From a virus: DNA of 23,476 bases. The notes under the pieces are model-generated. The model was not told where the DNA came from. It was given only the letters and a program-made list of their open reading frames with translations, and searched no databases. How positions within the stretch are numbered: position 1 is the first letter of the stretch; every line of letters begins with the position of its first letter. Shown here in pieces: positions 1 to 23,476 of this stretch. The position numbers were made by a program, and so were the translations under genes. The stretch is from IMG/VR virus record IMGVR_UViG_3300009079_000132, positions 1 through 23,476 of that record; one strand, given 5' to 3'.

Positions 1-1620
1 ATTACTGATACATCTGGCGCACTAGAAGATATTGGTATTACAGCAGCTAAGATTAGTAACTGGACAGTACTTTCAGCATTTACTGCTTCAGCAACAGCTC
101 CAACATCGACAACAGCAGACGGTACATTATGGTACAGTTCAGTAGTTGACGAAGTTGATATGATGTATCACAATGGTACAACTTGGGTTGGCTATAATGA
201 TGCTACTGCTTTTCCAAATGCAAAAGTTACTACAGCAGCAACTGAACCAACTACTAGCTTAGTAGCAAACGATATTTGGATTAGTACAGCAGATTTAGAA
301 AACTATCCAACAATTTATCGTTACAGTGCTGATCTTACAAAATGGGTATTGATTGACAAGTCAGATCAAACTACTGAAGATGGCGTTTTATTTGCTGATG
401 CACGTTACAGTACAGACGGTAGTGCTACTGAATCAACTATAGCTGAAATGCTATTAAGCAACTTTTTAGACACAGATGCTCCAGATCCAGCACTATATCC
501 ACAAGGTATGTTACTATGGAACTTACGTAGAAGCGGATTCAACGTTAAGAAATATGTACGTAACTATGTTGATATTACAGCTGATAATATTAGAATGGGC
601 GATGTAAGTATGGCAGCATACAGTCCAGATCGTTGGGTTACTGAATCAGGAAACCAAGAAGATGGTAGTGGATCATTTGGACGTCACGCACAGCGTAAAG
701 TTATTGTGCAAGGATTACAATCTGAAATGAACAGTAACCAAGACATTAGAGATGATGAATCAAGAATCTTTAACGTTATGGCAACACCTGGTTATTCAGA
801 GCTAATTGGCGAAATGATTAGTTTAAACCTTGATAGAGGCCTAAGTGCATTTATCGTAGGTGACACACCAGCAAGATTAACATCAGACGCAACATCACTT
901 AATGAGTGGGGTCAAAATACTAAACTTGCAGTTGAAGATAACGATGACGGACTTGTATCAAGAGACGAGTACTTAGGTATGTTTTACCCTTGGGGCTTTA
1001 CAAGTGATAACGCAGGCAACAATGTAGTTGTTCCGCCAAGTCATATGATGCTACGCACAATTGCACTTAGTGATCAAGTTAGCTATCCTTGGTTTGCACC
1101 AGCAGGCACAAGACGCGGTGGCGTAACTAATGCTACAGCAACAGGTTATGTTAATGGCAGTGGCGAGTTTGTTTCAATTGCATTAAACGAAGGACAACGT
1201 GACACACTTTACAGTGTAAATGTTAATCCAATTACGTTTATTAACGGAGCAGGACTTGTTAACTATGGTCAAAAGACTCGTGCAAGAAATGCAAGTTCAT
1301 TGGATAGAATTAACGTAGCACGTTTGGTTATCTACTTACGTAGTCAACTTAACAAACTTGCTAAGCCTTATATCTTTGAGCCAAATGACAAGATTACAAG
1401 AGATCAAATCAAACAAGCAGCAGAAAGTTTATGTTTAGAACTAGTAGGTGCTAGAGCACTATATGACTTCTTAGTTGTATGTGATAATAGTAATAACACA
1501 CCAGCTAGAATTGACAGAAACGAGCTGTACTTAGACATAGCAATAGAACCAGTGAAAGCAGTAGAGTTTGTTTACATTCCGCTACGCTTGAAAAATACTG
1601 GTGAGATAGCAGGCTTGTAA
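1..1620 (+). CDS. gp18: Contractile tail sheath protein gp18, 5' truncated
   Basis: This is the sheath subunit that polymerises around the tail tube and contracts to drive DNA injection. The frame is open from base 1, so the gene starts outside the window and 539 residues are visible. The C-terminal part is the classic sheath end: RINVARLVIYLRSQL, then KPYIFEPND, GARALYDFLVVCD and a final beta segment EFVYIPLRL. The first 130 or so visible residues hold an inserted region with two similar blocks (a Thr/Pro-rich segment, then LWYSS... or IWIST..., then an aromatic YHNG or YRYS motif), as I recall from marine T4-like sheaths. Every visible Ala-Ala pair is written GCA-GCN, unlike all later genes in the window. 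The identification is by family resemblance and by the tail tube gene directly downstream. Confidence 0.93.
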   Translation: MTDTSGALEDIGITAAKISNWTVLSAFTASATAPTSTTADGTLWYSSVVDEVDMMYHNGTTWVGYNDATAFPNAKVTTAATEPTTSLVANDIWISTADLENYPTIYRYSADLTKWVLIDKSDQTTEDGVLFADARYSTDGSATESTIAEMLLSNFLDTDAPDPALYPQGMLLWNLRRSGFNVKKYVRNYVDITADNIRMGDVSMAAYSPDRWVTESGNQEDGSGSFGRHAQRKVIVQGLQSEMNSNQDIRDDESRIFNVMATPGYSELIGEMISLNLDRGLSAFIVGDTPARLTSDATSLNEWGQNTKLAVEDNDDGLVSRDEYLGMFYPWGFTSDNAGNNVVVPPSHMMLRTIALSDQVSYPWFAPAGTRRGGVTNATATGYVNGSGEFVSIALNEGQRDTLYSVNVNPITFINGAGLVNYGQKTRARNASSLDRINVARLVIYLRSQLNKLAKPYIFEPNDKITRDQIKQAAESLCLELVGARALYDFLVVCDNSNNTPARIDRNELYLDIAIEPVKAVEFVYIPLRLKNTGEIAGL

Positions 1621-1624
1621 GAAT

Positions 1625-1632
1625 GATAAATA
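1625..1632 (+). promoter_or_regulatory. Late promoter upstream of tail tube gene
   Basis: GATAAATA matches the T4 late promoter core TATAAATA at seven of eight positions. By T4 geometry transcription would start near 1638, giving a leader of about 20 bases that contains the Shine-Dalgarno AGGAG (1646-1650) eight bases before the ATG at 1659. Confidence 0.7.
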
Positions 1633-1658
1633 TATATAACAAATTAGGAGCAAAGTAA

Positions 1659-2297
1659 ATGGCTATTTCATCATTATCAAAAATCACAGTTCCATTAGCT
1701 TCGGATGCAAGTAACTCTACCCAAGGGTTACTTATGCCAAAACTCCAGTACCGCTTTCGAGTGTCACTGGAAAACTTTGGTGTAAGTGCAGGCGAAGTTA
1801 CTGAACTAACAAAACAGGTTCAGGATGTTACTAGACCAAACGTAAGCTTCGAGACAATGACTGTTGACGTATATAACTCAAGAGTTTATCTTGCAGGTAA
1901 ACATACCTGGGAAGCTATTACACTTACTTTAAGAGACGATGCTACTGGTGCTGTACAAAAACTAGTTGGTGAACAACTACAAAGACAGTTCGATTTTATG
2001 GAACAGTCAAGTGCGGCAAGCGGAATTGATTATAAGTTTGTAACTAGAATTGAAATTCTAGACGGTGGTAACGGTAACTACGCACCAGAAACATTAGAAA
2101 CTTTTGAACTATACGGTTGTTACTTAGAAAGTGCAAATTACAATTCATTAGCATACAGTGCTAACGAACCAGTAACAGTTGCATTAACAGTTAAGTACGA
2201 CAATGCTATCCAAACATCAGGCGCAAGCGGTGGTGGAGTAGGTACTGCTATTGGAAGATCAGTAGCGGCTATAGCAAGTACAACTGGCGCAAGCTAA
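1659..2297 (+). CDS. gp19: Tail tube protein gp19
   Basis: This 212-residue protein forms the inner tube of the contractile tail. Typical tube features are the early LQYRFRVSLENFG strand, VQDVTRPNVSFETMTVDVYNS around residues 54-74, YLAGKHTWEAITLTLRDD, and the late strand LYGCYLESANYNSLAYS ending in a VTVALTVKYDNA strand. Length is close to the family norm. It follows the sheath gene as in T4, separated by 38 bases that carry a late promoter and a good ribosome binding site. The C-terminal 25 residues are Gly/Ala/Ser-rich and look flexible. Ala-Ala pairs are written GCG-GCN, in contrast with the sheath gene next door. Confidence 0.92.
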   Translation: MAISSLSKITVPLASDASNSTQGLLMPKLQYRFRVSLENFGVSAGEVTELTKQVQDVTRPNVSFETMTVDVYNSRVYLAGKHTWEAITLTLRDDATGAVQKLVGEQLQRQFDFMEQSSAASGIDYKFVTRIEILDGGNGNYAPETLETFELYGCYLESANYNSLAYSANEPVTVALTVKYDNAIQTSGASGGGVGTAIGRSVAAIASTTGAS

Positions 2298-2327
2298 GTT
2301 ACTTAATAGTACAACAAATTAGAATTA

Positions 2328-2348
2328 GGGGCTTCATTGCCCCTTTTT
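2328..2348 (+). terminator. Rho-independent terminator after tail tube gene
   Basis: Stem GGGGC (2328-2332), six-base loop, stem GCCCC (2339-2343), then five T residues. It closes the sheath/tube transcripts. A fresh late promoter follows 26 bases later. Confidence 0.85.
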
Positions 2349-2374
2349 CATTTTATACGCAGTTAATAACATTG

Positions 2375-2382: not shown

Positions 2383-2387
2383 TTAGT

Positions 2388-3803: not shown

Positions 3804-3804
3804 T

Positions 3805-4173: not shown

Positions 4174-4179
4174 AATGCC

Positions 4180-4617
4180 ATGGGAAGATTTGCACAGGGA
4201 AAATATAGTCTCAAAAATCCTGAGAAGTATATAGGTACAAAGACACCAACTTATAGAAGTAGTTGGGAGTTTACGTTTATGCGATTTTGCGACGAACACC
4301 CAAGTGTTGCTAAATGGGCAAGTGAAGCAATTAAAATTCCATATAAGAATCCATTAACCGGAAAGCATACAATATATGTTCCGGACTTCTTTATTGCATA
4401 CGCAGACCGTAAAGGAAAGCAACGTGTAGAACTAATAGAAGTAAAGCCAGAGAATCAAGCAGTAAAAGAAAAACTAGGCCGTAGTAAACATAACCAGGCT
4501 TCTTGGGTAGTTAACCAAGCAAAATGGGAAGCCGCAAGGGCATACTGTAAACAAAAAGGTATATTCTTTAGAGTCATAACAGAAAAAGATATATTCCACA
4601 ACGGTAAAAGACGATAA
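4180..4617 (+). CDS. gp4: Head-completion nuclease gp4
   Basis: A 145-residue homologue of T4 gp4, needed to finish DNA-filled heads before tail joining. The N-terminal signature NPEKYIGTKTPTYRSSWEF (residues 13-31) is diagnostic. A PD-(D/E)xK-type nuclease centre is visible: Glu30 in SSWEF, Asp69 in VPDFF and Glu87-x-Lys89 in LIEVKP. This is a TnsA/Vsr-like arrangement. The basic C-terminus would suit DNA binding. The start at 4180 lies six bases after the previous stop with no clear ribosome binding site, so translation may be coupled. Its stop codon is part of the next late promoter. Confidence 0.85.
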   Translation: MGRFAQGKYSLKNPEKYIGTKTPTYRSSWEFTFMRFCDEHPSVAKWASEAIKIPYKNPLTGKHTIYVPDFFIAYADRKGKQRVELIEVKPENQAVKEKLGRSKHNQASWVVNQAKWEAARAYCKQKGIFFRVITEKDIFHNGKRR

Positions 4618-5148: not shown

Positions 5149-5167
5149 CTTATATAGGATGGATAAT

Positions 5168-10137: not shown

Positions 10138-11124
10138 ATGGCATCATTAGCAGAAATCCGAGCAAAGCTCAAAGAGCAAGAAGCAAACGCTTCAGGTAAC
10201 CGTAGCTCAGGCGGCGGTGACAACAGCATTTACCCATTTTGGAATATTAAAGAAGGCGAGTCGGCAACGATGAGATTCTTGCCAGATGGCGATGCAGATA
10301 ACACTTTCTTTTGGAAAGAAAGACTCGTTATTAAACTTCCATTCGCAGGCATTAAAGGTGAAACAGATTCACGCCCTACACAAGTACAAATTCCATGTAT
10401 GGAAATGTATGGTGAGACATGTAACATTCTTAACGAAGTGCGTGGTTGGTTTAAAGATCCAAGTTTAGAAGACATGGGTCGTAAGTATTGGAAAAAGCGT
10501 TCGTACATTTTCCAAGGCTTTGTAACGGATAACCCACTAACGGACGATAACACACCTGAGAATCCAATTCGTAGGTTTATTATTGGTCCACAAATCTTCC
10601 AGATCATTAAGCAGGCGCTTATGGATCCAGACATGGAAGAATTGCCAACAGACTATACTGCAGGCGTAGACTTTCGTCTAAACAAAACATCCAAAGGTGG
10701 ATACGCAGACTACAGCACAAGTAATTGGGCACGTAGAGAGCGTCCATTAGACGATGCACAAATGAATGCAGTTAATACAAACGGTCTGTTTAATTTGTCA
10801 GACTTCCTGCCTAAAAAGCCAGGAGAGATTGAACTTAAAGTAATGCAAGAAATGTTTGAAGCGTCAGTAGACGGTGAAGCATTTGATGCAGATCGTTGGG
10901 GACAATACTTCCGACCAGCAGGTATGCAACAGCGTACAGGTGATCCATTAAAGGCATCTGCACCAGCGGCAACAACACCTGCTCCGACACCAGCACCAGC
11001 GGCACCTGCTCCAGTAGCAGAAGCGGCTCCTGCGGCAACTCCAGCACCAACTGCTGAAGCGGCACCAGCAGATGGTGGTAATGCTCAAGACATTCTAGCA
11101 ATGATCAGAGCACGTCAAAGTTAA
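10138..11124 (+). CDS. gp32: Single-stranded DNA-binding protein gp32
   Basis: The cooperative ssDNA-binding protein of replication and recombination. The N-terminus (LAEIRAKLKEQE) is the basic segment used for cooperativity, followed by the OB-fold start SIYPFWNIKEGESATMRFLPDG and RRFIIGPQIFQIIKQAL. The protein has 328 residues, against 301 in T4. The T4 zinc site (one His, three Cys) is not complete: only Cys87 and Cys95 occur and there is no histidine at all. Residues 273-311 are an Ala/Pro/Thr-rich linker, ending in a short helix NAQDILAMIRARQS instead of the acidic T4 tail. A strong AGGAGG precedes the ATG by seven bases. Own sigma70 promoter; uvsX follows. Confidence 0.9.
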   Translation: MASLAEIRAKLKEQEANASGNRSSGGGDNSIYPFWNIKEGESATMRFLPDGDADNTFFWKERLVIKLPFAGIKGETDSRPTQVQIPCMEMYGETCNILNEVRGWFKDPSLEDMGRKYWKKRSYIFQGFVTDNPLTDDNTPENPIRRFIIGPQIFQIIKQALMDPDMEELPTDYTAGVDFRLNKTSKGGYADYSTSNWARRERPLDDAQMNAVNTNGLFNLSDFLPKKPGEIELKVMQEMFEASVDGEAFDADRWGQYFRPAGMQQRTGDPLKASAPAATTPAPTPAPAAPAPVAEAAPAATPAPTAEAAPADGGNAQDILAMIRARQS

Positions 11125-11198: not shown

Positions 11199-12293
11199 AT
11201 GGCGAATAAAGCGTTTGATCCTACTAAGTTTAGGACACAACTAACTAAATCCATTTCAGGAATGAGTGCAGGGTTCAATGACCCGACTGATTGGATTAGT
11301 ACAGGAAATTATGCACTCAACTATCTTATCTCAGGAGACTTTCATAAAGGTGTTCCGCTAGGTAAGGTATCTGTTTTTGCAGGAGAATCAGGTGCAGGTA
11401 AATCATATATCTGTGCAGGTAACATTGTAAAAGCGGCACAAGACCAAGGCATCTTTGTAGTCTTAATTGATTCAGAGAATGCACTTGACGAAGCGTGGCT
11501 ACAAGCATTAGATGTAGACACAGCAGATGACAAACTACTAAAACTTAATATGTCAATGATTGATGATGTTGCTAAAACAGTATCAACATTTATGATTGAC
11601 TATAAAGCAATGGACGAAGAAGAACGTCCTAAAGTATTATTTGTTATTGACTCACTAGGTATGCTATTAACACCAACAGATGTTGATCAGTTTCAAAAGG
11701 GTGACATGAAAGGTGACATGGGTCGTAAGCCTAAAGCACTAACATCACTTGTACGTAATACTGTTAACATGATTGGTTCACATAACGTAGGCTTAGTGTG
11801 TACTAACCATACATATGCATCACAAGATATGTTTGATCCAGATGACAAGATATCAGGCGGTCAAGGCTTTATCTATGCATCTTCAATTGTTGTAGCAATG
11901 AAAAAACTAAAACTAAAAGAAGATGAAGATGGTAACAAGATCAGTCAAGTTATGGGTATTCGTGCAGGCTGTAAGGTAATGAAAACTAGATATGCAAAAC
12001 CTTTCGAGGCAGTGCAAGTTAAAATTCCTTATGAAACAGGCATGAATCCATATAGCGGACTATTGGAGTTATTTGAAGCAAAAGGTGTCATTGAAAAACA
12101 AGGTAACAGACTAAAGTATGTTTCCAGCGATGGCAAAGAAATCTTAGAATATCGTAAGAAATGGATCGGCGAAAACCTCGATACTGTTATGTCAGATTAT
12201 CTAATAAAAGAAGCGACTCTGGTAAATACCTCGGACGACGAATCTATTATAGATGAAGTAGAATTAGACGACATACAAACAATCGAGGAGTAG
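11199..12293 (+). CDS. uvsX: RecA-like recombinase UvsX
   Basis: The phage strand-exchange recombinase, which forms filaments on ssDNA and drives recombination-dependent replication and repair. In 364 residues, Walker A is GESGAGKS (62-69), followed by the catalytic-Glu segment LIDSENALDEAW (89-100) and Walker B VLFVIDSLGML (146-156). A GDMGRKPKALTSLVRN stretch and THYASQDMFDPDDKISGG-like DNA-binding loop region follow. The acidic C-terminus is typical. AGGAG at about 11190 precedes the ATG. It is probably transcribed from the gp32 promoter through the hairpin at 11136. Length is slightly below T4 UvsX (391). Confidence 0.95.
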   Translation: MANKAFDPTKFRTQLTKSISGMSAGFNDPTDWISTGNYALNYLISGDFHKGVPLGKVSVFAGESGAGKSYICAGNIVKAAQDQGIFVVLIDSENALDEAWLQALDVDTADDKLLKLNMSMIDDVAKTVSTFMIDYKAMDEEERPKVLFVIDSLGMLLTPTDVDQFQKGDMKGDMGRKPKALTSLVRNTVNMIGSHNVGLVCTNHTYASQDMFDPDDKISGGQGFIYASSIVVAMKKLKLKEDEDGNKISQVMGIRAGCKVMKTRYAKPFEAVQVKIPYETGMNPYSGLLELFEAKGVIEKQGNRLKYVSSDGKEILEYRKKWIGENLDTVMSDYLIKEATLVNTSDDESIIDEVELDDIQTIEE

Positions 12294-12530: not shown

Positions 12531-12986
12531 ATGGGTTGGTATAGCGAAGTATCTAGAGACATTAACAAGATACCTAATGCAGTTACATTCTATGAAAGTG
12601 AACTAATTGACGCAAAGAAAGAAGTTAAATTAGTTGGCAGTGTAGAAAAAGCATCAGCGGCTATGCCAGGCATAGTGGAACACAGGTTCAATCAATTACA
12701 AGAGATTGAAGCAATCCTAAACTATCTAAACATTGAGCTACGCAGGTTGCGTAGTTCATACTTTAAAAAATACTTAGAAAATTATCAACGAGCTCTGTCT
12801 AGTCGTGACGTAGAAAAATACGTTGACGGCGAGGCAGACGTTGTTGATTATGAAAAAATTATTAACGAGTTTGCACTAATGCGTAATAAGTGGTTAGGTG
12901 TCTTAAAAGGACTTGATCAAAAGCAATGGCAAATAACAAACGTAGTTAAACTACGTGTAGCAGGTATGGAAGATGCTACGCTATGA
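12531..12986 (+). CDS. uvsY: Probable UvsY-like recombination mediator
   Basis: A 151-residue, largely helical protein. Features resembling UvsY are two long helices (EHRFNQLQEIEAILNYLNIELRRLRSSYFKKYLENYQRAL), a KYVDGEADVVDY segment and a C-terminal helix pair ending VVKLRVAGMEDA. T4 UvsY (137 residues) shows the same order: basic helices with a YYSG or YVDG-like turn, then a helical tail. UvsY loads UvsX on gp32-coated DNA, and both partners are encoded directly upstream. Similarity is weak enough that it could be an unrelated conserved protein. Its stop overlaps the FkbM start (ATGA). Confidence 0.5.
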   Translation: MGWYSEVSRDINKIPNAVTFYESELIDAKKEVKLVGSVEKASAAMPGIVEHRFNQLQEIEAILNYLNIELRRLRSSYFKKYLENYQRALSSRDVEKYVDGEADVVDYEKIINEFALMRNKWLGVLKGLDQKQWQITNVVKLRVAGMEDATL

Positions 12987-13636
12987 CACAATACTACAGT
13001 CAAATAGAACAAGACAAATATTATATTGAAAATATATCACGTGGTAAACGTGAAGGATTCTATTTAGATATTGGTGCTAATGATGGAGTATTTACAAGTA
13101 ATACTGCTACATTAGACTACTCCTTTGGCTGGAAAGGTATTTGTATAGAAGCAAATCCACATTTAATACCGCAACTACAAAACAACAGACAGCATAGTAC
13201 AGTAGTACATTGTGCTGTTTTTAATACTAACGGTGAAGTTACTTTTGAAATTCCTTTAAGTGAACATAAGGATATTCGAGGAGACTTGTTATCTAGAATT
13301 ACAAACGTAGATTTAGATGCTAGAAATAAAAAATACTTTAAAAAACATTTTAAAGATAAAACAGAAACTACAACAGTAACAAGCAAAACTGTTACCACAA
13401 TATTACAAGAGAATCATAAATTGCCGTGTACAGTTGACTACATGAGTTTGGATACAGAAGGTGCTGAACTAGAAGCATTACAAGGTATAGACTTTAGTAA
13501 AATTACAATAAAGTTTATGACTATTGAACATGGTAATAGAAAAGGCATGATTGAAAAGTTAACGGATTACCTATCACCACATGGATACAAAGTACATAGA
13601 ATCAATAAGTGGGATATAGAATTTGAGCATGAATAG
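12983..13636 (+). CDS. FkbM-family SAM-dependent methyltransferase
   Basis: A 217-residue methyltransferase of the FkbM type (Methyltransf_21), which typically O-methylates sugars in glycans or glycosylated products. SAM motif I is YLDIGANDGVFTSN (27-40), followed by GWKGICIEANPHLIPQL (motif II, acidic ribose-binding residue in EAN) and VDYMSLDTEGAELEALQGIDF, the family's most recognisable segment. It overlaps the UvsY-like gene by four bases (ATGA) and is the first gene of the glycan cassette. Probable substrate: a sugar hydroxyl added by the downstream transferases (inferred). Confidence 0.88.
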   Translation: MTQYYSQIEQDKYYIENISRGKREGFYLDIGANDGVFTSNTATLDYSFGWKGICIEANPHLIPQLQNNRQHSTVVHCAVFNTNGEVTFEIPLSEHKDIRGDLLSRITNVDLDARNKKYFKKHFKDKTETTTVTSKTVTTILQENHKLPCTVDYMSLDTEGAELEALQGIDFSKITIKFMTIEHGNRKGMIEKLTDYLSPHGYKVHRINKWDIEFEHE

Positions 13637-14852: not shown

Positions 14853-15835
14853 AAGGCGTAGCAGTAATAGGCGCAAGTAAGTCATCTGGAATACTAAAGC
14901 GTATGCTATACGCACATGGACATACATTTGATTTAAAAAGTTGTTTAGATTCTAACTATGCTGATTTTTATTTCCAAACAAATATCTTAAAACATTATGA
15001 AGGAAAGAAAGTAACTAGAGATGCATTTGAATTTATTGCACGTAGTGATAAACCTTCTATTGTAAACGAAAGTCCTATCTTTAGAGATTTACAAGGTAAC
15101 AGTAAATTAACTAAATGGCACAGGCTTGCTTGGAATAGTTACTTTTATAATACTGGCACGTATCCAAAAGACTGTCCTAGTGACCGTTGGGAAATGATGC
15201 AAAAGGATTTTGATTTACAAATAAACCCTTGGGACGATAACGGCGATTATGTATTACTATGCTTACAGAAAATTGGTGATAGTAGTTTAAATCATTTGTA
15301 TAAAAAATACAATACCGACACAGCCTGGCAAGCATACACCTTATGGTTAAAAGATACACTAGACGAAATACGTAGAAATACAGATAGAAAAATTGTAATA
15401 CGCCCACACCCAAATAATATGCGACCACAAGTAAGATACTTTTCAGAGTTAGCAAGCAAATATACAAATGTGGTAATGAGTAGCAACTTTGAATACAACG
15501 GAAGTGTTACTATGGCACCCAGCGGTGGGCTTAAAAAGGACATTTTAGACTCAAAATGCGTTATAGTTTTTAGTAGTTTAACGGCAGTTGAGAGCATTTT
15601 TAATGGCAAACCAACGTATACATTAGACCCAAGTTCAGTAGCATCACCTATTGCTAGAAGCAATTTACATCATATTGAGACTGCTTGGCAACCCGTTGAT
15701 AGACAACAATGGTTAAATGATATGAGTTATGCACAGTGGACAGGTGAAGAAATACAAAGAGGTGATCCTTGGCATACATTACATTCTTTATTTGAACAAG
15801 CCAAGACACAAAAGCATACACAAATCATGCAATAA
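14849..15835 (+). CDS. GT-B/capsule-type transferase, paralogue 1
   Basis: A 328-residue protein of the same family as those at 17260, 18722 and 21212. The shared core is YVLLCLQ (134-140), WLKDTLDEIRRNTDRKIVIRPHP (166-188) and CVIVFSSLTAVESIFNGKPTY (237-257), then IET...DRQQWL and EEIQRG. The RPHP and SS motifs resemble those of bacterial sialyltransferases and capsule/CDP-glycerol-type transferases with a GT-B fold, where His-Pro and Ser-Ser contact the nucleotide donor. The N-terminal VIGASKSSG is a nucleotide-fold-like start. Its TAA is part of the late promoter at 15831. Donor and acceptor unknown. Confidence 0.72.
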   Translation: MKGVAVIGASKSSGILKRMLYAHGHTFDLKSCLDSNYADFYFQTNILKHYEGKKVTRDAFEFIARSDKPSIVNESPIFRDLQGNSKLTKWHRLAWNSYFYNTGTYPKDCPSDRWEMMQKDFDLQINPWDDNGDYVLLCLQKIGDSSLNHLYKKYNTDTAWQAYTLWLKDTLDEIRRNTDRKIVIRPHPNNMRPQVRYFSELASKYTNVVMSSNFEYNGSVTMAPSGGLKKDILDSKCVIVFSSLTAVESIFNGKPTYTLDPSSVASPIARSNLHHIETAWQPVDRQQWLNDMSYAQWTGEEIQRGDPWHTLHSLFEQAKTQKHTQIMQ

Positions 15836-15838
15836 ATA
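15831..15838 (+). promoter_or_regulatory. Late promoter inside the glycan cassette
   Basis: AATAAATA includes the TAA stop (15833-15835) of the upstream gene and is five bases from ATG 15844, the same spacing as at 2375 and 8006. It would give a leaderless late mRNA for the cytidylyltransferase-cupin gene and those after it. Confidence 0.62.
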
Positions 15839-15843
15839 TCTAC

Positions 15844-16605
15844 ATGAACGTAGTATTAGTAACCGGCGGCTTTGATCCGCTACACTCAGGACACATAGAA
15901 TATTTTATAGAAGCAAAGAAACTCGGCGACAAACTTGTTGTTGGTGTTAATACAGATGCTTGGTTAAAACGCAAGAAAGGTCGTCCGTTTATGCCCGGCG
16001 GCGAACGCATTTCAATTATAAAAAACTTATCAATGGTTGATCATTGTTTGTTATTTGGTGACGATGACGATAGTGCTATTGAAGCAATAAACAATGTTAG
16101 ACTGTTATATCCTGATGCACATATCATATTTGCAAACGGCGGAGATAGAACATCTGAGAATATTCCAGAGATGGAAGCAGATGTAGAAAATATTTCTTTT
16201 AAATTCGGCGTAGGCGGAGAGAACAAAGCCAACAGTAGTAGTTGGATACTTGACGAGTGGAAAACACAAAAGACTGAACGTGATTGGGGCTATTGGCGTG
16301 TACTAGATGACAAGCCAGACAAAGGTTACAAAGTAAAAGAGCTTGTAATATATCCAGGTAAATCACTCAGTGATCAAAAACACTTTAAGCGTTCAGAAGA
16401 ATGGAATGTGCTAGAAGGCACAGTTAAAATGGACACTGAATGGAATAGTATACAAAGTAGTATAATACTAGAACCAAAAAGTAGAACATTTCAAATTGGT
16501 AAACAAGTTTGGCATAAGGCAAGCAATCCTGGAACAGAGAACACTCATATACTAGAAGTACAATGGGGCGACTGTTATGAAGAAGATATAGAAAGAAGAG
16601 ATTAA
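15844..16605 (+). CDS. Cytidylyltransferase-cupin fusion (sugar-nucleotide synthesis)
   Basis: A two-domain protein of 253 residues. Residues 1-140 are a nucleotidyltransferase of the glycerol-3-phosphate cytidylyltransferase/RfaE family: GGFDPLHSGHIEY with the HxGH-type HSGH (14-17), KGRPFMPGGERISII, ANGGDRTSENIPE and NKANSSSWIL. Residues 148-253 are a cupin like the C-terminal domain of type II mannose-6-phosphate isomerase/GMP: WGYWRVLD, YKVKELVIYPGKSLSDQKH, EEWNVLEGTVKM and HKASNPG...LEVQWGD. The HxH metal pair reads H180-F-K182, so one ligand is lost. It probably makes an NDP-sugar or CDP-polyol donor for the neighbouring transferases. Stop and next ATG share one base (TAATG). Confidence 0.85.
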   Translation: MNVVLVTGGFDPLHSGHIEYFIEAKKLGDKLVVGVNTDAWLKRKKGRPFMPGGERISIIKNLSMVDHCLLFGDDDDSAIEAINNVRLLYPDAHIIFANGGDRTSENIPEMEADVENISFKFGVGGENKANSSSWILDEWKTQKTERDWGYWRVLDDKPDKGYKVKELVIYPGKSLSDQKHFKRSEEWNVLEGTVKMDTEWNSIQSSIILEPKSRTFQIGKQVWHKASNPGTENTHILEVQWGDCYEEDIERRD

Positions 16606-17276
16606 TGAAAGTATTCATAGGCTACGAACCAAGAGAAGATATGGCTTATCAAGTGTGTAAACATAGCATACTAAAGCATCAACCCGATGCAGATGTACGT
16701 CCGCTAGTACAAAAAGAATTAAGACAAGCAGGATGGTACAAGCGTCCTGAAGATAAACTTGCATCAACAGAATTTACATTTACACGTTTCTTAGTACCAG
16801 AGCTTGCTAACTATAAAGGCTGGGCTTTGTTTATGGATTGTGATATGTTGCTTACAACAGACATTAAAGAATTATTTGATCAAGCAGATGACAAGTATGC
16901 TGTTATGTGTGTGCAACATGATTACACACCTAAAGAAGGTATTAAGATGGACGGACAAAAACAAACTATCTATCCACGCAAGAACTGGTCAAGTGTTGTG
17001 TTATGGAACTGTAGTCATCCTAGTAATAAAGTTGTTGACCAAGATCAAGTTAACAGTTTAGAATTAAATGGTGCATACTTTCATAGGTTTAGTTGGCTAC
17101 AAGATGAAGAAATTGGCGAACTAGATCATACATGGAACTACTTAGTAGGTGTGTACGACGATATTGAAAAACCTAAATTAATTCATTTCACTGAAGGAGG
17201 TCCTTGGTTTGAAAACTATAGAGACTGTCAGTTTAATGAATTATGGAAACAAGAACTGTATGATATGTTTAAGTAA
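16605..17276 (+). CDS. GT-A glycosyltransferase 1 (GT8-like)
   Basis: A 223-residue transferase with a GT-A fold. MKVFIGYEPRED at the start is the nucleotide-binding strand and loop, FTRFLVPEL precedes ALFMDCDML, whose DxD (Asp78, Asp80) binds the divalent metal and sugar nucleotide. Later segments WSSVVLWNC, LDHTWNYLVGVYD and KLIHFTEGGPWF match the acceptor-side and C-terminal histidine features of GT8-like enzymes. It follows the sugar-nucleotide enzyme directly and precedes a GT-B paralogue that starts within its last codons. Donor and acceptor not identifiable. Confidence 0.82.
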   Translation: MKVFIGYEPREDMAYQVCKHSILKHQPDADVRPLVQKELRQAGWYKRPEDKLASTEFTFTRFLVPELANYKGWALFMDCDMLLTTDIKELFDQADDKYAVMCVQHDYTPKEGIKMDGQKQTIYPRKNWSSVVLWNCSHPSNKVVDQDQVNSLELNGAYFHRFSWLQDEEIGELDHTWNYLVGVYDDIEKPKLIHFTEGGPWFENYRDCQFNELWKQELYDMFK

Positions 17277-18036
17277 AAATAAAACAGATCAATATATAAA
17301 CATGTTTGCTAAAAGTGCAAACTTGCCTATATACGACTATAGCGACTTTCCAGACGATGTTCCTATTGTAATACGTAGCATGGGCAAACGAAAACTTATA
17401 CACGAATGTTGGAAGAACAAAAGAGACTTTTACTATATGGATAGTGGTTATGTAGGAAACTACAAGTCATCAATAAATCCAAACGGTTGGAAACAATGGC
17501 ATCGTATAGTAAAGAATGATGTACAACACAACGAAATAATAGACAGACCAAACGACAGATGGAACCGACTACAACAAGCAATACACAAACCTAAGAAAGG
17601 TGGCGCACATATATTACTTGTTACACCTAGTGAAAAGCCTTGTAAGTTTTATGGTATTGATAGAGATCAATGGGTCAAAGATACTGTTAACGAAATAGAA
17701 AAGCATACAGATAGAACTATTATAATTAGAGACAAAGCACCACGCCAAAGTCGTATAGACAAAACTATATATGATGACTTAGACAACTGTCATGCAATGG
17801 TTACATATCAAAGCATAGCGGCAGTAGAAAGTGTGTTATATGGCGTCTCAGCGTTTACTACAGCGCCTACAGCGGCTGATCCAGTGTGCGATAAGGATAT
17901 TAGTCGTATTGAAAGTCCAACACAACAAGACTCGCATAAAGTATATAAATGGGCATGTCACTTAGCATACGGACAATTCCATAATGAAGAATTACAAAAC
18001 GGTACAGCACATAGAATAATAAAGGGCCTAGTATGA
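17260..18036 (+). CDS. GT-B/capsule-type transferase, paralogue 2 (altered HP motif)
   Basis: A 258-residue member of the four-copy family: HILLVTP (117-123), WVKDTVNEIEKHTDRTIIIR (138-157), CHAMVTYQSIAAVESVLYGV (177-196) and IESP. Where the others have RPHP or RAHP it has RDKAP, and the Ser-Ser motif reads QS, so catalytic residues appear changed. Start choice is uncertain: TTG 17209 and ATG 17236 overlap the previous gene by 68 and 41 bases, ATG 17260 by 17; the last is preferred for its compact overlap and a plausible N-terminus (MICLSKNKTDQYIN). It is the shortest of the four. It may be a degenerate or differently specific enzyme. Confidence 0.68.
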   Translation: MICLSKNKTDQYINMFAKSANLPIYDYSDFPDDVPIVIRSMGKRKLIHECWKNKRDFYYMDSGYVGNYKSSINPNGWKQWHRIVKNDVQHNEIIDRPNDRWNRLQQAIHKPKKGGAHILLVTPSEKPCKFYGIDRDQWVKDTVNEIEKHTDRTIIIRDKAPRQSRIDKTIYDDLDNCHAMVTYQSIAAVESVLYGVSAFTTAPTAADPVCDKDISRIESPTQQDSHKVYKWACHLAYGQFHNEELQNGTAHRIIKGLV

Positions 18037-18725
18037 AATTAAAATTTGTTACAAGTATATCAAAAAACTATTGGAAAGGCGTTGGCAAGCATTGTATTAG
18101 CACATGGGACTTGCCCGGCAAAGTAGAAATATATATTGACCAACACGAAGGTGATGTTGAATGGTTTAATGAATTGCCTTTTAACAAAAGATTGTTACAT
18201 GTACCTGCATTAGATGTTGACAGCGAGTTTGATGTTAATACTAAAATAAGAAAGTTCTGGGGTAAAAGTGTAGCACAAATACATGCTATAAAAAATAGAC
18301 AAGAGGACGAAAGAATAATTTGGTTAGACGCAGACATAGAACAAATGCGTAAAGTGCCTGAAGAAGCATTTAGTTTTCCATTTATAAATCCAGTTGCTAT
18401 GATGCAAAGTAATAATTCACACCCTGACTGTTACGAATCAGGACTTGTATTGTTTAATGAAGAATACGAAAAATTAACATTATGGTCAAACAAGTATTGG
18501 GCATTTTGGAATGATCAAAACAAACTAGAAAGTTTACACAAACCTTATGATGCTATTGTACTTGGTAACTTTGCTAAAGGTGAAAAAGCAGGCTTCTTAA
18601 ATTTATGTGACGATGTATGTGAAAATGTAAATGCATTAGAAAATACACGCTTTAGTTTATATTTCAAACATCATATTAATAAAACTAATAAAGACAAACT
18701 TAAACATACATTGGCATCAACATGA
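18033..18725 (+). CDS. GT-A glycosyltransferase 2
   Basis: A 230-residue GT-A-like protein related to the next one at 19633. MKLKFVTSISKNYW is the first strand, IHAIKNRQEDERIIWLDADIEQM carries the DxD (Asp99, Asp101), and CYESGLVLFNEEYEKL is the segment after the metal site seen also in the neighbours (there SCETGFFVLN). The C-terminus (YFKHHINKTNKDKLKHTLAST) is basic. It overlaps both neighbours by four bases (ATGA), so translation is coupled to the paralogous GT-B genes on each side. Confidence 0.78.
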   Translation: MKLKFVTSISKNYWKGVGKHCISTWDLPGKVEIYIDQHEGDVEWFNELPFNKRLLHVPALDVDSEFDVNTKIRKFWGKSVAQIHAIKNRQEDERIIWLDADIEQMRKVPEEAFSFPFINPVAMMQSNNSHPDCYESGLVLFNEEYEKLTLWSNKYWAFWNDQNKLESLHKPYDAIVLGNFAKGEKAGFLNLCDDVCENVNALENTRFSLYFKHHINKTNKDKLKHTLAST

Positions 18726-19636
18726 AATCTGTAAGAATTTACTACGCAGGTATTCCCGCACATAATAAAAATTTAGAAAAAAGACAAGTTCTAACAAGTT
18801 TCCATAATGGCGTAGGCACTGATGGAGAAAGTTTAGAAATTCAAACACCTAACTGGGAACCAAGTGACTTAGGTGTTATACAAGGATGGGTACATGCAAA
18901 TAGCGGTAGTACTCCACACTTAATGTTTCGCAGACAAGTAATACAACAACAAAAACTTATTGGCAAACATACACTTGCTATTGATAGTAATTTATTCTTA
19001 TATAGAGATCCAGGTAATACTAAACAGTATCTACGTTTTAGTTTAGATGATGTATTTCCAACCACAGGTAATTACTTTACAGATAATGTAGACCCTACAC
19101 GCTGGCAACAATTAAAACGCAACTTAGGTTTTGATTTGCAACCGTGGACTAACAAAGGCAAGCACATACTATTATGTTTACAACGCAACGGCGGTTGGAG
19201 CATGGGCGGATATGACGTAATGGATTGGTGTAATAAAACTATTAAAGAAATACAACAACACACTGATAGAGATATTATAGTTAGAGCGCACCCTGGAGAT
19301 AAGAAAGCAAAACAATACTTGACTTTGAACTATCCAGGTGTTAAGATAAGCACAGCACCGTCTATATTAGACGATTTTAGAAAATGCTGGGCAGTAGTTA
19401 CATACAACAGTAGCCCAGGCGTAGCGGCGGCGATAGAGGGTATTCCTGTGTTTATAACAGACCCTAATGCTAAAGTTAGTCAAGCATATGATGTAGGCAA
19501 TACAGATTTAAGTCAACTAGACAATCCAATACGTCCTGAAAGACAACAGTGGATTGAAAAACTAGCAATGAGTCATTTTAATTTTGCAGATTTAGAAAAA
19601 GGAACTGCATGGAATATTATTAAGGAGTACCTATGA
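18722..19636 (+). CDS. GT-B/capsule-type transferase, paralogue 3
   Basis: A 304-residue member of the family: HILLCLQRNGG (148-158), DWCNKTIKEIQQHTDRDIIVRAHP (168-191), CWAVVTYNSSPGVAAAIEGIPVF (222-244), then LDNPIRPERQQWIEKLAMSHF and EKGTAWNIIKEYL. The RAHP and NSS motifs are intact. The N-terminal half (VRIYYAGIPAHNKN, VIQGWVHANSG, HTLAIDSNLFLYRD) resembles the corresponding parts of the 17260 and 21212 proteins. Four-base overlaps at both ends. Role inferred as transfer of a sugar or polyol phosphate. Confidence 0.74.
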   Translation: MKSVRIYYAGIPAHNKNLEKRQVLTSFHNGVGTDGESLEIQTPNWEPSDLGVIQGWVHANSGSTPHLMFRRQVIQQQKLIGKHTLAIDSNLFLYRDPGNTKQYLRFSLDDVFPTTGNYFTDNVDPTRWQQLKRNLGFDLQPWTNKGKHILLCLQRNGGWSMGGYDVMDWCNKTIKEIQQHTDRDIIVRAHPGDKKAKQYLTLNYPGVKISTAPSILDDFRKCWAVVTYNSSPGVAAAIEGIPVFITDPNAKVSQAYDVGNTDLSQLDNPIRPERQQWIEKLAMSHFNFADLEKGTAWNIIKEYL

Positions 19637-20340
19637 AATACGCAGGTATAACTAGTATGAATCAATCATATTATGATCGTTGTGGTTCTAATATGTTGAA
19701 TACGTTTAAGAAACATTGGTCACACTTAATAAAATTACATGTTTATAATGAAGATAACTTCTCATTAAATGATGATACGTTTATTGAAATGGGTTGGGAC
19801 TTAGGCGATGCATACGAATCATTTCAAGCAAGACATAAAAATAAAAGAGTAAAAACATTTGCTAAAAAAGGCTTTAGTATTATACATGCTATGGATAACA
19901 TTGACGCTGATAGAATTATTTGGATTGATGCAGATACAATAATTAAGAAGCCTTTTGACCTAGCAGTGTTTGGAAATATTACACAAGATAAGTTTTTAAG
20001 TTCGCATTTACAAGTATGGCATAACAAAAATGACATTGACTATTATAGTTGTGAAACAGGATTCTTTGTTTTAAATACAAGACACAAAGGCTACAAAGAG
20101 TTTTGTGATACATACAAAGACATTTATTATAATGATAAACGTGAAGGTATGCGTAGATTTTATGATGGAGAAATTTACGGTAAAACTGTACAAGCAATGC
20201 ACAGTAGAAACTTTAAAATGTATAATATGACATACGGGGATCGTGTAAAAACACCTGTGCCTAGAAGTCCATTAGCACCATTTATTGAACACAATAAAGC
20301 AGGATTAAAAGAACGTATTGACTACGACTTAGTCCAATAG
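19633..20340 (+). CDS. GT-A glycosyltransferase 3
   Basis: A 235-residue GT-A-like protein. KYAGITSMNQSYYDRCGSNML, LHVYNEDNF, FAKKGFSIIHAMDNIDADRIIWIDADT (DxD at Asp99/Asp101), SCETGFFVLNTRHKG and a GEIYG motif are visible. It has the best ribosome binding site of the cassette, AAGGAG at 19622-19627. It overlaps the previous stop by four bases, and its 3' end overlaps the reverse-strand gene by 19 bases, with no terminator between. It resembles the 18033 and 20322 proteins, so the three are probably paralogues. Confidence 0.8.
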   Translation: MKYAGITSMNQSYYDRCGSNMLNTFKKHWSHLIKLHVYNEDNFSLNDDTFIEMGWDLGDAYESFQARHKNKRVKTFAKKGFSIIHAMDNIDADRIIWIDADTIIKKPFDLAVFGNITQDKFLSSHLQVWHNKNDIDYYSCETGFFVLNTRHKGYKEFCDTYKDIYYNDKREGMRRFYDGEIYGKTVQAMHSRNFKMYNMTYGDRVKTPVPRSPLAPFIEHNKAGLKERIDYDLVQ

Positions 20341-21170
20341 TCTTCTTTTCTATTAACCATTATATCTGTACGTTTACTCTTACCAGCAGTTTTACGATCA
20401 CCTTTCATGTGATCCATCCATCTACCTAGTTCAGTATTAATTAAAGGATGTCCGCCGCCACCTGTACGTGCTTCACGCATATACATAGTAGCACTATAGT
20501 CAAATGCATTAGCATCAAATTCTTTATAATGTTTTAGTATGTGTCCAAACACATAACTGTCGTGCCATTCTTCTAATTCAAAAATGCCGTTGTCTGCATC
20601 TTCGTACATACGTTCAAACTCTTTAAGGAACTCGTGACACACTGGATGATTTAAGTTCATACCATAAAAGCCGCACTCGGGCCATGTCTGTGATCCTTTG
20701 CCTCTACCTACATATGTAATGTAAGCATTGTTAGGTAGTAAGCGAGCAAAGTCTTTGTGCTTCCAAGGACTATGAATAAATGTATCTGCGTCCATCCATA
20801 CACACCAACCTTTGCTACGTTCACACGCATCAAACACTGCATAAGTTTTGTTAGCAAAACGTATAGCGTCCCACTTAAACTTCTTTTGCCAATCTCTTGG
20901 TCTACGTGCTTTAATATCATCTGGAGGAATACCATTTGCTTTGTCTACGTTACCCCAACGCTGTTTAAATTTTACAAGTTTAGGTAACTCTTTAGTTGCA
21001 TCTAATATTGTAATTTGTTCTGGATTAGGATTAACAGGATTACAATCTTCTGCATATACTAGCAGTTTGATCTTATCACTTACGTTCTCAGCAAATGAAT
21101 CTATCATACGCTGTCCATATAATTTTAAACCCGGACGGTGAAACGTTGTAACCACAGTTATGTCTGACAT
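20322..21170 (-). CDS. GT-A glycosyltransferase 4, only reverse-strand gene
   Basis: A 282-residue GT-A-like protein read on the - strand from ATG at 21170. DITVVTTFHRPGLKLYGQRMIDSF, LLVYAEDC, WDAIRFANKTYAVFDACERSKGWCVWMDADTF (DxD at Asp127/Asp129), WPECGFYGMNLNHP and EEWHDSYVFGHIL are visible, the last three parallel to segments of the 19633 protein. A Gly-rich TGGGGHPL lies near the C-terminus. The upstream sequence is purine-rich (GAGAGAG) before the ATG and includes a possible late promoter at 21202-21209. Its opposite orientation in an otherwise one-directional block suggests a local inversion or separate acquisition. Confidence 0.82.
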   Translation of the reverse strand: MSDITVVTTFHRPGLKLYGQRMIDSFAENVSDKIKLLVYAEDCNPVNPNPEQITILDATKELPKLVKFKQRWGNVDKANGIPPDDIKARRPRDWQKKFKWDAIRFANKTYAVFDACERSKGWCVWMDADTFIHSPWKHKDFARLLPNNAYITYVGRGKGSQTWPECGFYGMNLNHPVCHEFLKEFERMYEDADNGIFELEEWHDSYVFGHILKHYKEFDANAFDYSATMYMREARTGGGGHPLINTELGRWMDHMKGDRKTAGKSKRTDIMVNRKEDYWTKS

Positions 21171-21182
21171 TATACTCTCTCT

Positions 21183-21190
21183 TGTAAATA
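21183..21190 (+). promoter_or_regulatory. Possible late promoter, + strand of divergent pair
   Basis: TGTAAATA, a variant late core like the one before gp17 but here in only 41 bases between divergent genes. Predicted start near 21196, with AGGA at 21197-21200 upstream of ATG 21212. Confidence 0.4.
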
Positions 21191-21201
21191 GCTTATAGGA
21201 A

Positions 21202-21209
21202 TATTTAAC
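21202..21209 (-). promoter_or_regulatory. Possible late promoter, - strand of divergent pair
   Basis: Read on the - strand this is GTTAAATA. T4 spacing places its start near 21196, 26 bases before the reverse-strand ATG at 21170, coinciding with the predicted start of the + strand promoter. Confidence 0.35.
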
Positions 21210-21211
21210 TT

Positions 21212-22060
21212 ATGAGATTCAGTTTATGGACACAATATGGCGCACAGAATAGCAGATCGGTTTTTGATGCCTTTGCTCACAGCCTTGTGGTTGCTGGGCA
21301 TGACGTTTTGTATAATACTAGTGGTTGTGACGTTGACGTCATTTGGAGTGTTCTTTGGAGTGGTAGAATGGCTCCAAACGAAAATATCTGGAAGCAAGCA
21401 GTACAACAATCGAAACCGATAATAGTTTTAGAGGTCGGCGGCATAAGTAGAGGTACAACATGGAAGGTTGGACTCAATGGCATTAATAGGGACGCTTACT
21501 TTGGCCCTAGTAGCACAGATAGCAATCGTGCTAACAGTTTTAACATCAAGTTAAAAGACTGGAACTATAACGGCGAATACATTTTACTATGTGGGCAACA
21601 CGACAAAAGCCTGCAATGGGCAAACATGCCTCCAATGTCTCGCTGGGTACACGACACAATAACATTCATAAGAGCGCAAACGAAACGTCCTATCATATTT
21701 AGGCCTCATCCTAGATGCAGACTTGAAGCAATTGAAAGAGACTTCAAAGATGTAATAAGACAAGAACCGCGACAAATACTAGGTTCATATGACGACTTCG
21801 ATATGAAGTTTGATAACATATGGGCTACTATAAGCTGGTCAAGCAATCCAGGCATACACAGTATTATTAATGGTGTACCTGCATTTACAGGACCTAGCAG
21901 TCTAGCATTTGATGTTGCTGATCAAAACTTTCGCAACATAGAGAATCCTCTTTATCCAGATAGAACTAAATGGGTCAACGACTATGCTTGGACAGAATTT
22001 ACTTTAGAAGAAATATCTCAGGGAATACCACTTAAACGCTTGACTTCTAAGCTAACATAG
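21212..22060 (+). CDS. GT-B/capsule-type transferase, paralogue 4
   Basis: A 282-residue member of the four-copy family: YILLCGQ (123-129), WVHDTITFIRAQTKRPIIFRPHP (145-167), IWATISWSSNPGIHSIINGVPAF (203-225), then IENPLYPDRTKWVNDYAWTEF and EEISQG. The N-terminal part (FSLWTQYGAQNSRSVFDAFAHSL, VDVIWSVLWSG, IIVLEVGGISRGTTWKVGLNGINR) is better preserved as a nucleotide-fold half than in the others. RPHP and WSS are intact. It is the last gene of the cassette, and its 3' end contains the sigma70 promoter of the following gene. Confidence 0.75.
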   Translation: MRFSLWTQYGAQNSRSVFDAFAHSLVVAGHDVLYNTSGCDVDVIWSVLWSGRMAPNENIWKQAVQQSKPIIVLEVGGISRGTTWKVGLNGINRDAYFGPSSTDSNRANSFNIKLKDWNYNGEYILLCGQHDKSLQWANMPPMSRWVHDTITFIRAQTKRPIIFRPHPRCRLEAIERDFKDVIRQEPRQILGSYDDFDMKFDNIWATISWSSNPGIHSIINGVPAFTGPSSLAFDVADQNFRNIENPLYPDRTKWVNDYAWTEFTLEEISQGIPLKRLTSKLT

Positions 22061-22068
22061 CGTATACT
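22040..22068 (+). promoter_or_regulatory. Sigma70-type early promoter with start at the ATG
   Basis: -35 TTGACT (22040-22045), 17-base spacer, -10 TATACT (22063-22068). The expected start, seven bases on, is 22075, the A of the next ATG. It lies across the stop codon (22058-22060) of the preceding transferase and marks the return to early genes. Confidence 0.8.
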
Positions 22069-22074
22069 AACACT

Positions 22075-23307
22075 ATGGAAACATTAGAAGATTGCATAGA
22101 ACATCTTGTCGGAATACAGTCAAGAGAAACAGATAAGTTTGATATAGACAGTAGCGACTATAACTTACTTACTAGCCTCGCCCGCCAGACTTTCAAAGGC
22201 ACAGCATATACAGATAGGCAAGCAGAACTTGCCAAACAAAAACTGTTGCAATATAAAGATCAGTTTGATGCTAACGGATATAACATTGATGATTCTTATA
22301 GTAATTTAAGAATGCCGTTACGTTCAATAGATAGAAGTCGTTGGGTTAAAGTATTTGACGAAGAACATTTAATTTCAGATGAAGAAGGACCTTGGATAGG
22401 TGTAAGATTTATTTTTCAAAAGAAACTAATAACTGCTATTGAAAGAATGAATAAGTTTCTAGGCGAAGGCTTATACGACAAAGTAGAAAAGATACACTAC
22501 TTTAAATTTAATGAAAACACATGCTACGAAATAATTAATACATTTAATGAAAACAACAACTTTGAAGTTGAGGATCAGTTACTAGAATATTATGAGAAGT
22601 TATTAGAAATGAAAAAAAATCAAGACAAATACGTACCGGGAATATATTCGTTTAAACTAAAAAATTTACATGAGAAAAGTTTTAACTTTGCTATTAGCAG
22701 TATAGGCGAACCTAATATAGATAACCTATGTAACTATTACGACAAAAAAGATCAGTTTGGATTAGAACATTTTGATCAAGAAGAGTTACAACAAAGTTTA
22801 AAATCATTAACTCCGCTTGCACAAAAAGTAGTAAACAGAAGTCAAGCAAGTATATTTGTAAACAATAAAGAACACACTGTTAACAATCTTGCTGAAGTAG
22901 TATTAGAGTTATATAGATTTCCGTTAGTTATTGTACTACATGAAGATACTTGCTACGATCATTTAACACAATTTAATAAGGCCTTTCAAAATATTATACC
23001 TAGCGAACGCATGTCTGTAATGTTTAGATTAGATAATACTTCAGAAGGAAAACCGTTTAACGAATACATTAAACAACACAATCTTAATAATGTGGTTGAC
23101 AAAGACACAAAAATAGTGTATATTAGTAGTAATAAAATACCGAAACCACTTTTAAAAAGTGAATGGTTTCCTAGCGCGGCTATAACAACATTTGCTGGAA
23201 AAGCATATGGTGATGCAAAAACTAGTACATACATAGGAGAATTAGATTTGATAATACATTATGACAATCAGCTTAGTCCTTTTATGAGAAAAATTGAGAC
23301 GATATAA
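22075..23307 (+). CDS. Conserved protein of unknown function upstream of UvsW
   Basis: A 410-residue protein that I do not recognise by function. The first 120 residues are helical and conserved-looking (LEDCIEHLVGIQSRETDKFDIDSSDYNLLTSLARQTFKGTAYTDRQAELAKQKLL), then RMPLRSIDRSRWVKV and a VRFIFQKKLITAIERM segment. The second half has alternating strands and helices (FPLVIVLHEDTCYDHL, ERMSVMFRLDNTSEGKPFNEYI, TKIVYISSNKIPKPLL, AAITTFAGKAYGDAKTSTYIGELDLIIHYD), reminiscent of a RecA/helicase-like or nucleotide-fold domain but without a Walker motif. I recall a similar gene beside uvsW in marine T4-like phages. Its stop abuts the uvsW ATG, and it has a strong early promoter, so a role in recombination or replication is likely. 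Confidence 0.8.
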   Translation: METLEDCIEHLVGIQSRETDKFDIDSSDYNLLTSLARQTFKGTAYTDRQAELAKQKLLQYKDQFDANGYNIDDSYSNLRMPLRSIDRSRWVKVFDEEHLISDEEGPWIGVRFIFQKKLITAIERMNKFLGEGLYDKVEKIHYFKFNENTCYEIINTFNENNNFEVEDQLLEYYEKLLEMKKNQDKYVPGIYSFKLKNLHEKSFNFAISSIGEPNIDNLCNYYDKKDQFGLEHFDQEELQQSLKSLTPLAQKVVNRSQASIFVNNKEHTVNNLAEVVLELYRFPLVIVLHEDTCYDHLTQFNKAFQNIIPSERMSVMFRLDNTSEGKPFNEYIKQHNLNNVVDKDTKIVYISSNKIPKPLLKSEWFPSAAITTFAGKAYGDAKTSTYIGELDLIIHYDNQLSPFMRKIETI

Positions 23308-23476
23308 ATGGCAACATGTAGACTAATTATTGAAGATGAAGTAAACATTAAACTAGAAGGACTAGAAGTTGACGTACGAAGGAAGCTCGCGAATGCTCTC
23401 AAGTTTGAAGTGCCTTACGCAAAGTACATGCCACAATATAAACTTGGTCGCTGGGATGGAAAAGTTGCTTTCTTTG
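23308..23476 (+). CDS. uvsW: RNA-DNA/branch-migration helicase UvsW, N-terminus only
   Basis: Only the first 56 codons lie in the window; the frame is open to the right edge. The sequence ALKFEVPYAKYMPQYKLGRWDGKVAFF matches the small N-terminal domain of T4 UvsW, which reads similarly up to its YGNWDGRI motif. UvsW unwinds R-loops and migrates branched DNA, switching replication from origin-dependent to recombination-dependent. The ATG follows the previous stop directly (TAA then ATG). The helicase motifs are outside the window, so the call rests on this domain and the recombination context. Confidence 0.8.
   Translation, partial: MATCRLIIEDEVNIKLEGLEVDVRRKLANALKFEVPYAKYMPQYKLGRWDGKVAFF

Follow-up and report, generated by a model that had tools for sequence, protein, structure and literature searches.

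A single word, GCWGC (W being A or T), is missing from nearly all of a 23,476-nt stretch of viral DNA, positions 1 to 23,476 of IMG/VR record IMGVR_UViG_3300009079_000132. We refer to this whole stretch as the window. The features on which the analysis turns are given below, where G002 is a near-identical sister contig and L002 the next nearest relative.

1..1620, + strand: tail sheath gene, 5' end beyond the window (PF17482 Phage_sheath_1C, E 6.6e-13)
1..1500, + strand: sheath-gene stretch diverging from sister G002 (identity 75-83% in three 500-base bins), a probable recombination tract that contains all four GCAGC sites
43..47, + strand: GCAGC site 1 (direct count)
235..239, + strand: GCAGC site 2, not GCAGC in G002, which carries an insertion there
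613..617, + strand: GCAGC site 3, missing from G002
1417..1421, + strand: GCAGC site 4, GCCGC in G002 and GCAGC in L002
6412..8007, + strand: terminase large subunit, T4 type (PF03237, PF17289), basis of the first tree
10138..11124, + strand: gp32-like single-stranded DNA binding protein with an Ala/Pro tail (PF08804, E 8.4e-05, under the curated cut-off)
11199..12293, + strand: UvsX/RecA-like recombinase (PF00154, E 2.1e-15), basis of the second tree

In a profile search, the product of the tail sheath gene had no match to PF04984. Judged by terminase and UvsX, the nearest named phages are PA5oct, Phosso, Atu_ph07 and Vibrio phage 2.275.O, whose records span about 287 to 490 kb. Because of this kinship we regard the window phage as a jumbo phage. 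The phage records contained no near match to the window.

Direct counting placed GCAGC at positions 43, 235, 613 and 1417 and found no GCTGC, giving four GCWGC sites in the window. Since GCWGC is self-complementary as a class, a count on one strand covers both. No site lies between 1422 and 23,476, as a preliminary description made from the letters alone had claimed. For the entire window, a maximal-order Markov model predicted 28.2 sites against the 4 observed, the lowest z-score among the 5-mer classes. Shuffling codons within genes predicted still more (mean 34.0, standard deviation 2.9, minimum 26 in 1000 shuffles), and a shuffle roughly preserving the first base of the next codon gave a mean of 32.8 and a minimum of 23 (1000 shuffles). 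With the first gene left out (coding regions within 1659-23307), 2000 codon shuffles yielded a mean of 29.6 and a minimum of 20 sites, and none was observed. Of the 468 5-mer classes with an expectation of 10 or more in this part, GCWGC was the sole class with a zero count; the next lowest ratio was 0.21. The codon-shuffled control, which the preliminary description had named as a refuting test, thus showed no equal shortage, and composition or codon usage is rejected as the cause. The description's own expectation of a dozen or more sites was too low, as codon shuffling predicts about 30. One other word, TAATC, was scarce in the window (4 against 15.6 by codon shuffle; GATTA/TAATC 28 against 59 by the Markov model).

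Most expected sites are codon-aligned Ala-Ala steps, because frame 1 accounts for 28.4 of the 34.0 predicted by codon shuffle; the other two frames add about five to six (3.8 and 1.8). The observed counts in the three frames were 4, 0 and 0. Outside the first gene, all 30 Ala-Ala pairs start with GCG (22) or GCC (8), so that the earlier claim that none begins with GCA or GCT holds for all of them. The remaining four pairs, in the first gene, all have GCA first. Of the 495 Ala codons that precede other residues, 462 are GCA or GCT. All five Ala-Ala pairs in the tail of the gp32-like protein are GCG-GCN, also as previously described. With so many of the expected sites at codon-aligned Ala-Ala steps, much of what the window alone shows could be mimicked by a preference for certain codon pairs; mutational or codon-pair bias in the machinery of replication or translation might then remove GCWGC with no defence enzyme involved. 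A bias that acts on GCA-GC and GCT-GC, spares GCG-GC and is absent in close kin has no cause that we know of. The avoidance is of GCWGC and not of GCNGC, as had been proposed: GCGGC and GCCGC (together GCSGC) occurred 42 times in 1659-23307 against 14.8 by codon shuffle, the highest ratio of all classes. GCNGC avoidance is thereby rejected.

We compared the window with its relatives, collected in five scans of viral contigs that used three terminases from other purged phages and two window proteins as queries. The best 80 loci of 600 stretches in each scan gave 258 loci; together with the window these made 259 sequences, 66 of which were removed as near copies, leaving 193. Removing nine more with an expectation below 5 left 184, window included, for assigning GCWGC state. 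The ratio of observed to expected sites was two-peaked: 136 loci lay at 0.6 or above, three between 0.3 and 0.6, and 45 below 0.3, with 35 at zero. The comparison with related phages suggested in the preliminary description thus resolved them into two groups, normal and purged, with few loci lying between these. As most sampled relatives are normal, loss of GCWGC is rejected as a family-wide trait. The purged fraction describes this sample and not prevalence in the family, because the scans took the best rows and several queries came from purged phages.

Long contigs extend the contrast between the groups. Purged examples are G029 (0 of 139 expected sites, 117 kb), G031 (0 of 104, 86 kb), G030 (1 of 110, 96 kb) and G032 (0 of 43), and the sister contig G002 has 3 sites against 54 expected over 42 kb. 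Near-expected counts elsewhere in the genome were the other refuting condition named in the preliminary description; G002, almost identical to the window, has an equal shortage. Normal contigs include G005 (770 of 863 expected, 358 kb) and G042 (461 of 495, 275 kb). Counts over 40 kb each were likewise normal in Vibrio phage 2.275.O (56 observed, 63 expected), Sinorhizobium phage Phosso (84, 95) and Pelagibacter phage HTVC008M (45, 39). On the terminase (TerL) tree of 81 rows, the purged label requires five changes, at least two of them forced by starred branches, and on the UvsX tree of 135 rows it requires 16, at least eight of them forced in this way. These counts treat gains and losses alike. 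The existence of relatives with the same genes, similar base composition and normal GCWGC argues against the bias described above.

We next looked at how individual sites were lost, using 13 of the 26 window genes aligned with seven normal relatives. After one gapped site of 125 was dropped, none of the relatives' 124 GCWGC sites was retained in the window; 58 were replaced synonymously, mainly through GCC or GCG taking the place of GCA or GCT, and the other 66 replacements altered a residue. In control comparisons of normal with normal relatives (six pairs, overlapping sequences; 5 of 93 sites dropped as gapped), 29 of 88 sites were retained and 12 were lost synonymously. Taken the other way round, these control pairs kept 29 of 93 sites, with 14 synonymous losses. 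The excess of synonymous loss indicates selection on the DNA word and not on the protein.

To see which words are eliminated across the family, we scanned 134 loci of at least 9 kb (59 shorter ones of the 193 were left out), considering words expected at least 12 times and calling a word eliminated below 0.1 of its expectation. Palindromic words were eliminated in 39 of 5070 tests: AGCT 15 times, GCWGC 14, CATG 5, CTAG 2, and GCGC, TGCA and GTAC once each. Non-palindromic words (4-mers, and 5-mers grouped by W or S centre) were eliminated in 0 of 46,176 tests. The loci are related, so these tests are not independent, and 6-mers stand outside this strict tally. Among exact 5-mers (52,706 tests), GCAGC was eliminated 14 times and just one other word once, CGAAA in L057. 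Such near-exclusive elimination of palindromes is the signature of orthodox Type II restriction. That other lineages lose CATG, AGCT, GTAC or CTAG instead of GCWGC, or in addition to it, also argues against a bias of replication or translation, which we regard as extremely unlikely.

Loss of AGCT accompanies loss of GCWGC: it was seen in 18 of the 45 GCWGC-poor loci and in 4 of the other 139, an association due in part to shared descent. Both words are eliminated in G030, G032, G033 and the phage-like contigs of the MED657 bin described below; in the 96 kb of G030, AGCT occurs 0 times against 208 expected. In the window itself AGCT is half-depleted, with 36 occurrences against 75 by codon shuffle, or 0.50 of the Markov expectation; the normal relatives have a median of 0.80, and 15 of 133 lie at or below 0.52. 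Loss of CATG was seen in eight loci, none of them GCWGC-poor, which could be chance (P 0.2). CATG is eliminated in L071, L019, L166, L154 and L148, and from the whole contig G009 (0 of 85 expected). G010, the contig of L019, has no CATG up to 18.7 kb and six in its final 3.4 kb, perhaps an exchanged tract. Other purged palindromes include GTAC in G051 (0 of 102 expected), CTAG in G037 (0 of 86), TGCA in G040 (8 of 125) and GCGC in L168 (0 of 28). In the first 40,000 bases of Pelagibacter phage HTVC008M (L380), where GCWGC is normal, TCGA occurs 0 of 33 and CASTG 2 of 44 expected times. Some words do not follow the GCWGC groups: GTGCAC is scarce whether a contig is purged or normal (G005 2 of 55, G030 3 of 21 expected), and AGCGCT is missing from normal contigs (G005 0 of 26, G042 0 of 11).

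The palindromic bias bears on the kind of defence involved. A non-orthodox host system (Type I, Type III, BREX-like, or a modification-dependent BisI-like reader of GCNGC) might have driven the loss, and the asymmetry of CGAAA in L057 would suit it; BisI-like enzymes read GCNGC according to the passages of PMC4926085 and PMC11347163 that we draw on. The tallies of eliminated palindromic and non-palindromic words speak against such a system, and the enrichment of GCSGC speaks against a reader of GCNGC. Moreover, in the portions of a virus survey used here, avoidance was not observed for Type I and IIG systems and was very rare for Type III (PMC6286503). We therefore consider a non-orthodox defence very improbable.

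A further possibility is that the phage itself carries a nuclease directed at GCWGC in the DNA of its host or of rivals, and spares its own genome by having no sites. Phages in general do carry nucleases, and one of this kind would need a site-free genome, as no phage-encoded methylase was found: three DNA methyltransferase families, PF00145, PF01555 and PF02086, had no match in the phage records searched, which are mostly fragments. We compared the gene content of 138 normal loci with that of 48 purged ones, each locus covering no more than about 23 kb of its genome (7 of the 193 loci left out). Of the proteins missing from all 138, none occurred in over 6 of the 48, and no phage gene is convincingly tied to the loss. 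In addition, lineages purge different palindromes, several of them together, and a separate nuclease would be needed for each. A self-sparing nuclease thus seems very unlikely. Six GCWGC-free loci (L218, L221, L224, L227, L245 and L263) have two adjacent genes in common that are missing from the 138 normal loci; by eye, one looks peroxiredoxin-like and the other like a macrocin-type methyltransferase.

The complete loss of palindromes, the synonymous exits, the switching of words between lineages and their combinations fit restriction by a host Type II system. We infer that the reader of GCWGC is a restriction enzyme and that the host encodes it. Very likely, the T4-like lineage of the window, a jumbo lineage by kinship, was purged because an orthodox Type II restriction-modification system that its host encodes, and that cuts unmethylated GCWGC, exerted selection over a long time. 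The preliminary description had likewise pointed to a host enzyme reading GCWGC, of the TseI/ApeKI type, and the codon shuffles, the two groups of relatives and the palindromic words support this as the best inference. Every GCWGC site would expose incoming phage DNA to cutting. Variants that lost a site, often through a synonymous change of Ala GCA or GCT to GCC or GCG before a G, would survive better, and selection would continue until nearly no GCWGC was left. The sites that remain would then lie in a sheath stretch swapped between lineages.

Several observations weigh against this explanation. Four sites persist in the window, and contigs G001 (50 of 164 expected) and G004 (39 of 89) are intermediate, so the pressure was not absolute or did not last in every lineage. 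Reading G004 as a mosaic is weakly supported, as 132 of 5000 random placements yield an equally long gap. Orthodox Type II restriction does not account for the asymmetric word CGAAA/TTTCG in L057 (1 against 21 expected). When the threshold was relaxed to 0.15 of expectation, the scan returned many non-palindromic words, mainly 6-mers with small expectations. With two-strand counts halved, stronger cases among them are ACTGC, at about 3 of 24 in L156, and TCGCA, at about 2 of 18 in L103. The trees behind the state changes are fast, single-gene trees of recombining phages. Finally, no GCWGC methyltransferase/nuclease pair was tied to a host of the window phage.

The four residual sites sit in a stretch whose divergence from G002 is probably due to recombination. 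Aligned with G002, the window shows 75-83% identity from position 85, where the alignment starts, to about 1500, and mostly 97-100% beyond. The GCWGC-free part begins at 1422, near this break in identity, and G002 has no GCWGC in the part matching the sheath stretch. The break at about 1500 therefore suggests that either the window or G002 exchanged a sheath segment. Among the collected relatives, the first 1450 bases best match L018 (79.3%), with the sister L001 nearly equal (78.1%); L018 has normal GCWGC (38 against 36 expected). In L002, two of the three GCWGC sites fall in the covered part of the sheath gene. The GCAGC sites of the sheath gene are presumably recent imports.

Restriction-site avoidance is already known, and what is notable here is its scale and the repeated purging. 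The portions of the survey cited above, which covers almost 4000 viruses, report avoidance mainly for orthodox Type II sites, 7.1% of which were eliminated, and discuss GCWGC among palindromic Type IIM sites that double as orthodox Type II sites (PMC6286503). Like the cases described there, the window lacks a palindromic Type II word in a tailed phage. Unlike them, it belongs to T4-like metagenome contigs with no assigned host, in which up to 139 expected sites are missing from one contig and the state changes repeatedly inside one family, sometimes jointly with AGCT. A marine parallel is offered by pelagiphages, in which, as far as the sections consulted report, GANTC is depleted in about half of 33 phages, clustered on the tree (PMC9516812). 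There too, the phages, all of one marine host group, fall into clusters with low and with normal motif counts; the word is GCWGC here and GANTC there, and the present phages are of another, larger kind. Methylation specific for GCWGC exists in aquatic bacteria: M.AbaBS3I of lake Chloroflexi is a GCWGC methyltransferase that was tested with TseI, itself named as GCWGC-specific (PMC6329791). In the table consulted, this enzyme stands outside any restriction-modification system, and the portions of that paper used here give no link to the phages of the window (PMC6329791). Jumbo phages are mentioned in connection with nucleus-like shells in the excerpted part of a review (PMC12707154), and full-text searching of an open-licence collection turned up no paper dedicated to their restriction-site avoidance (subscription papers and preprints being outside that scope). 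In the sampled family, very large genomes show almost complete avoidance over long stretches, with at least eight state changes and a switching of palindromes. This offers a natural experiment in the effect of restriction on big phages, and missing words could help predict the restriction systems, and hence the hosts, met by uncultured jumbo phages.

Searching bacterial and archaeal species genomes for host leads, we found seven loci encoding a relative, in five metagenome-assembled genomes. GCWGC was low in six of the seven loci (four of the five genomes; one locus had only 3 sites expected), and L351 was normal with 7 of 7 expected. One of the genomes, the MED657 bin, titled Rickettsiales bacterium, includes phage-like contigs. 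Seven phage-like stretches of it (139 kb in total, guanine-cytosine (GC) content 0.345-0.39), chosen because each had zero of both words, hold 0 of 107 expected GCWGC and 0 of 186 expected AGCT sites; an eighth, L364, has 0 of 8 and 7 of 26, respectively. Contigs of the same bin with a GC content of about 0.27-0.31, whose genes look chromosomal by eye, carry two Type II loci with 5-methylcytosine (m5C) methylases. On contig C15, two tandem m5C methylases adjoin two open reading frames (ORFs) matching the PADLOC nuclease family PDLC03402. Contig C25 has one methylase, an HNH endonuclease-like protein and a second methylase. The HNH resemblance covers 18-27% of the length in plasmid hits, and the PADLOC HNH match has an E-value of only 0.065. 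Searches of NCBIfam, PADLOC, Pfam, PDB and plasmids did not resolve the specificity of these enzymes, PF01555 had no match in the bin, and no 16S gene was found when sought for taxonomy. The cellular contigs do not avoid GCWGC themselves (129 against 118 expected, pooled fetched stretches with GC below 0.34); this does not decide the matter, because their own sites would be methylated if MED657 restricts.

The presence of two systems in MED657 alongside two missing words, GCWGC and AGCT, is suggestive, and co-binning is weak evidence of infection. As the window's clade is not fully without AGCT, its host may differ from MED657. Another of the genomes, RS350, has two near-alike GCWGC-low loci (L349 and L350) and m5C methylase genes. 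The latter lie on contigs of 8.2, 5.3 and 60.8 kb, and not on the 335-kb contig of L349 or the 153-kb contig of L350; the methylase stretches had no DNA match to the collected phage loci. An ORF adjoining one of these methylases looks like a phage protein by eye; the methylase genes may be those of the cell or of a phage. More speculatively, eliminated palindromes might form a readable record of host defence. The phages lacking both GCWGC and AGCT might then have in common a marine host of low GC content that carries two m5C Type II systems, alphaproteobacterial given that the MED657 bin is titled Rickettsiales, and the family's jumbo phages might repeatedly have cleared several hundred sites from their genomes in order to infect hosts of this kind. 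We consider this proposal possible yet doubtful.

Two further window genes were recognised by their Pfam domains:

4180..4617, + strand: TnsA-like endonuclease domain protein (PF08722, E 1.7e-24)
12983..13636, + strand: FkbM-type methyltransferase (PF05050, E 2.6e-17)

FkbM-type methyltransferases are, to our knowledge, not counted among DNA methyltransferase families. In the region after UvsX (12983-23307), 7 of the 10 scanned proteins had no Pfam match at E 0.001; the others are the FkbM-type methyltransferase, a protein combining cytidylyltransferase-like and mannose-6-phosphate isomerase parts, and a family 8 glycosyltransferase. The Phosso gene at roughly the same place as the TnsA-like gene, matched by position only, is annotated as a head completion protein.

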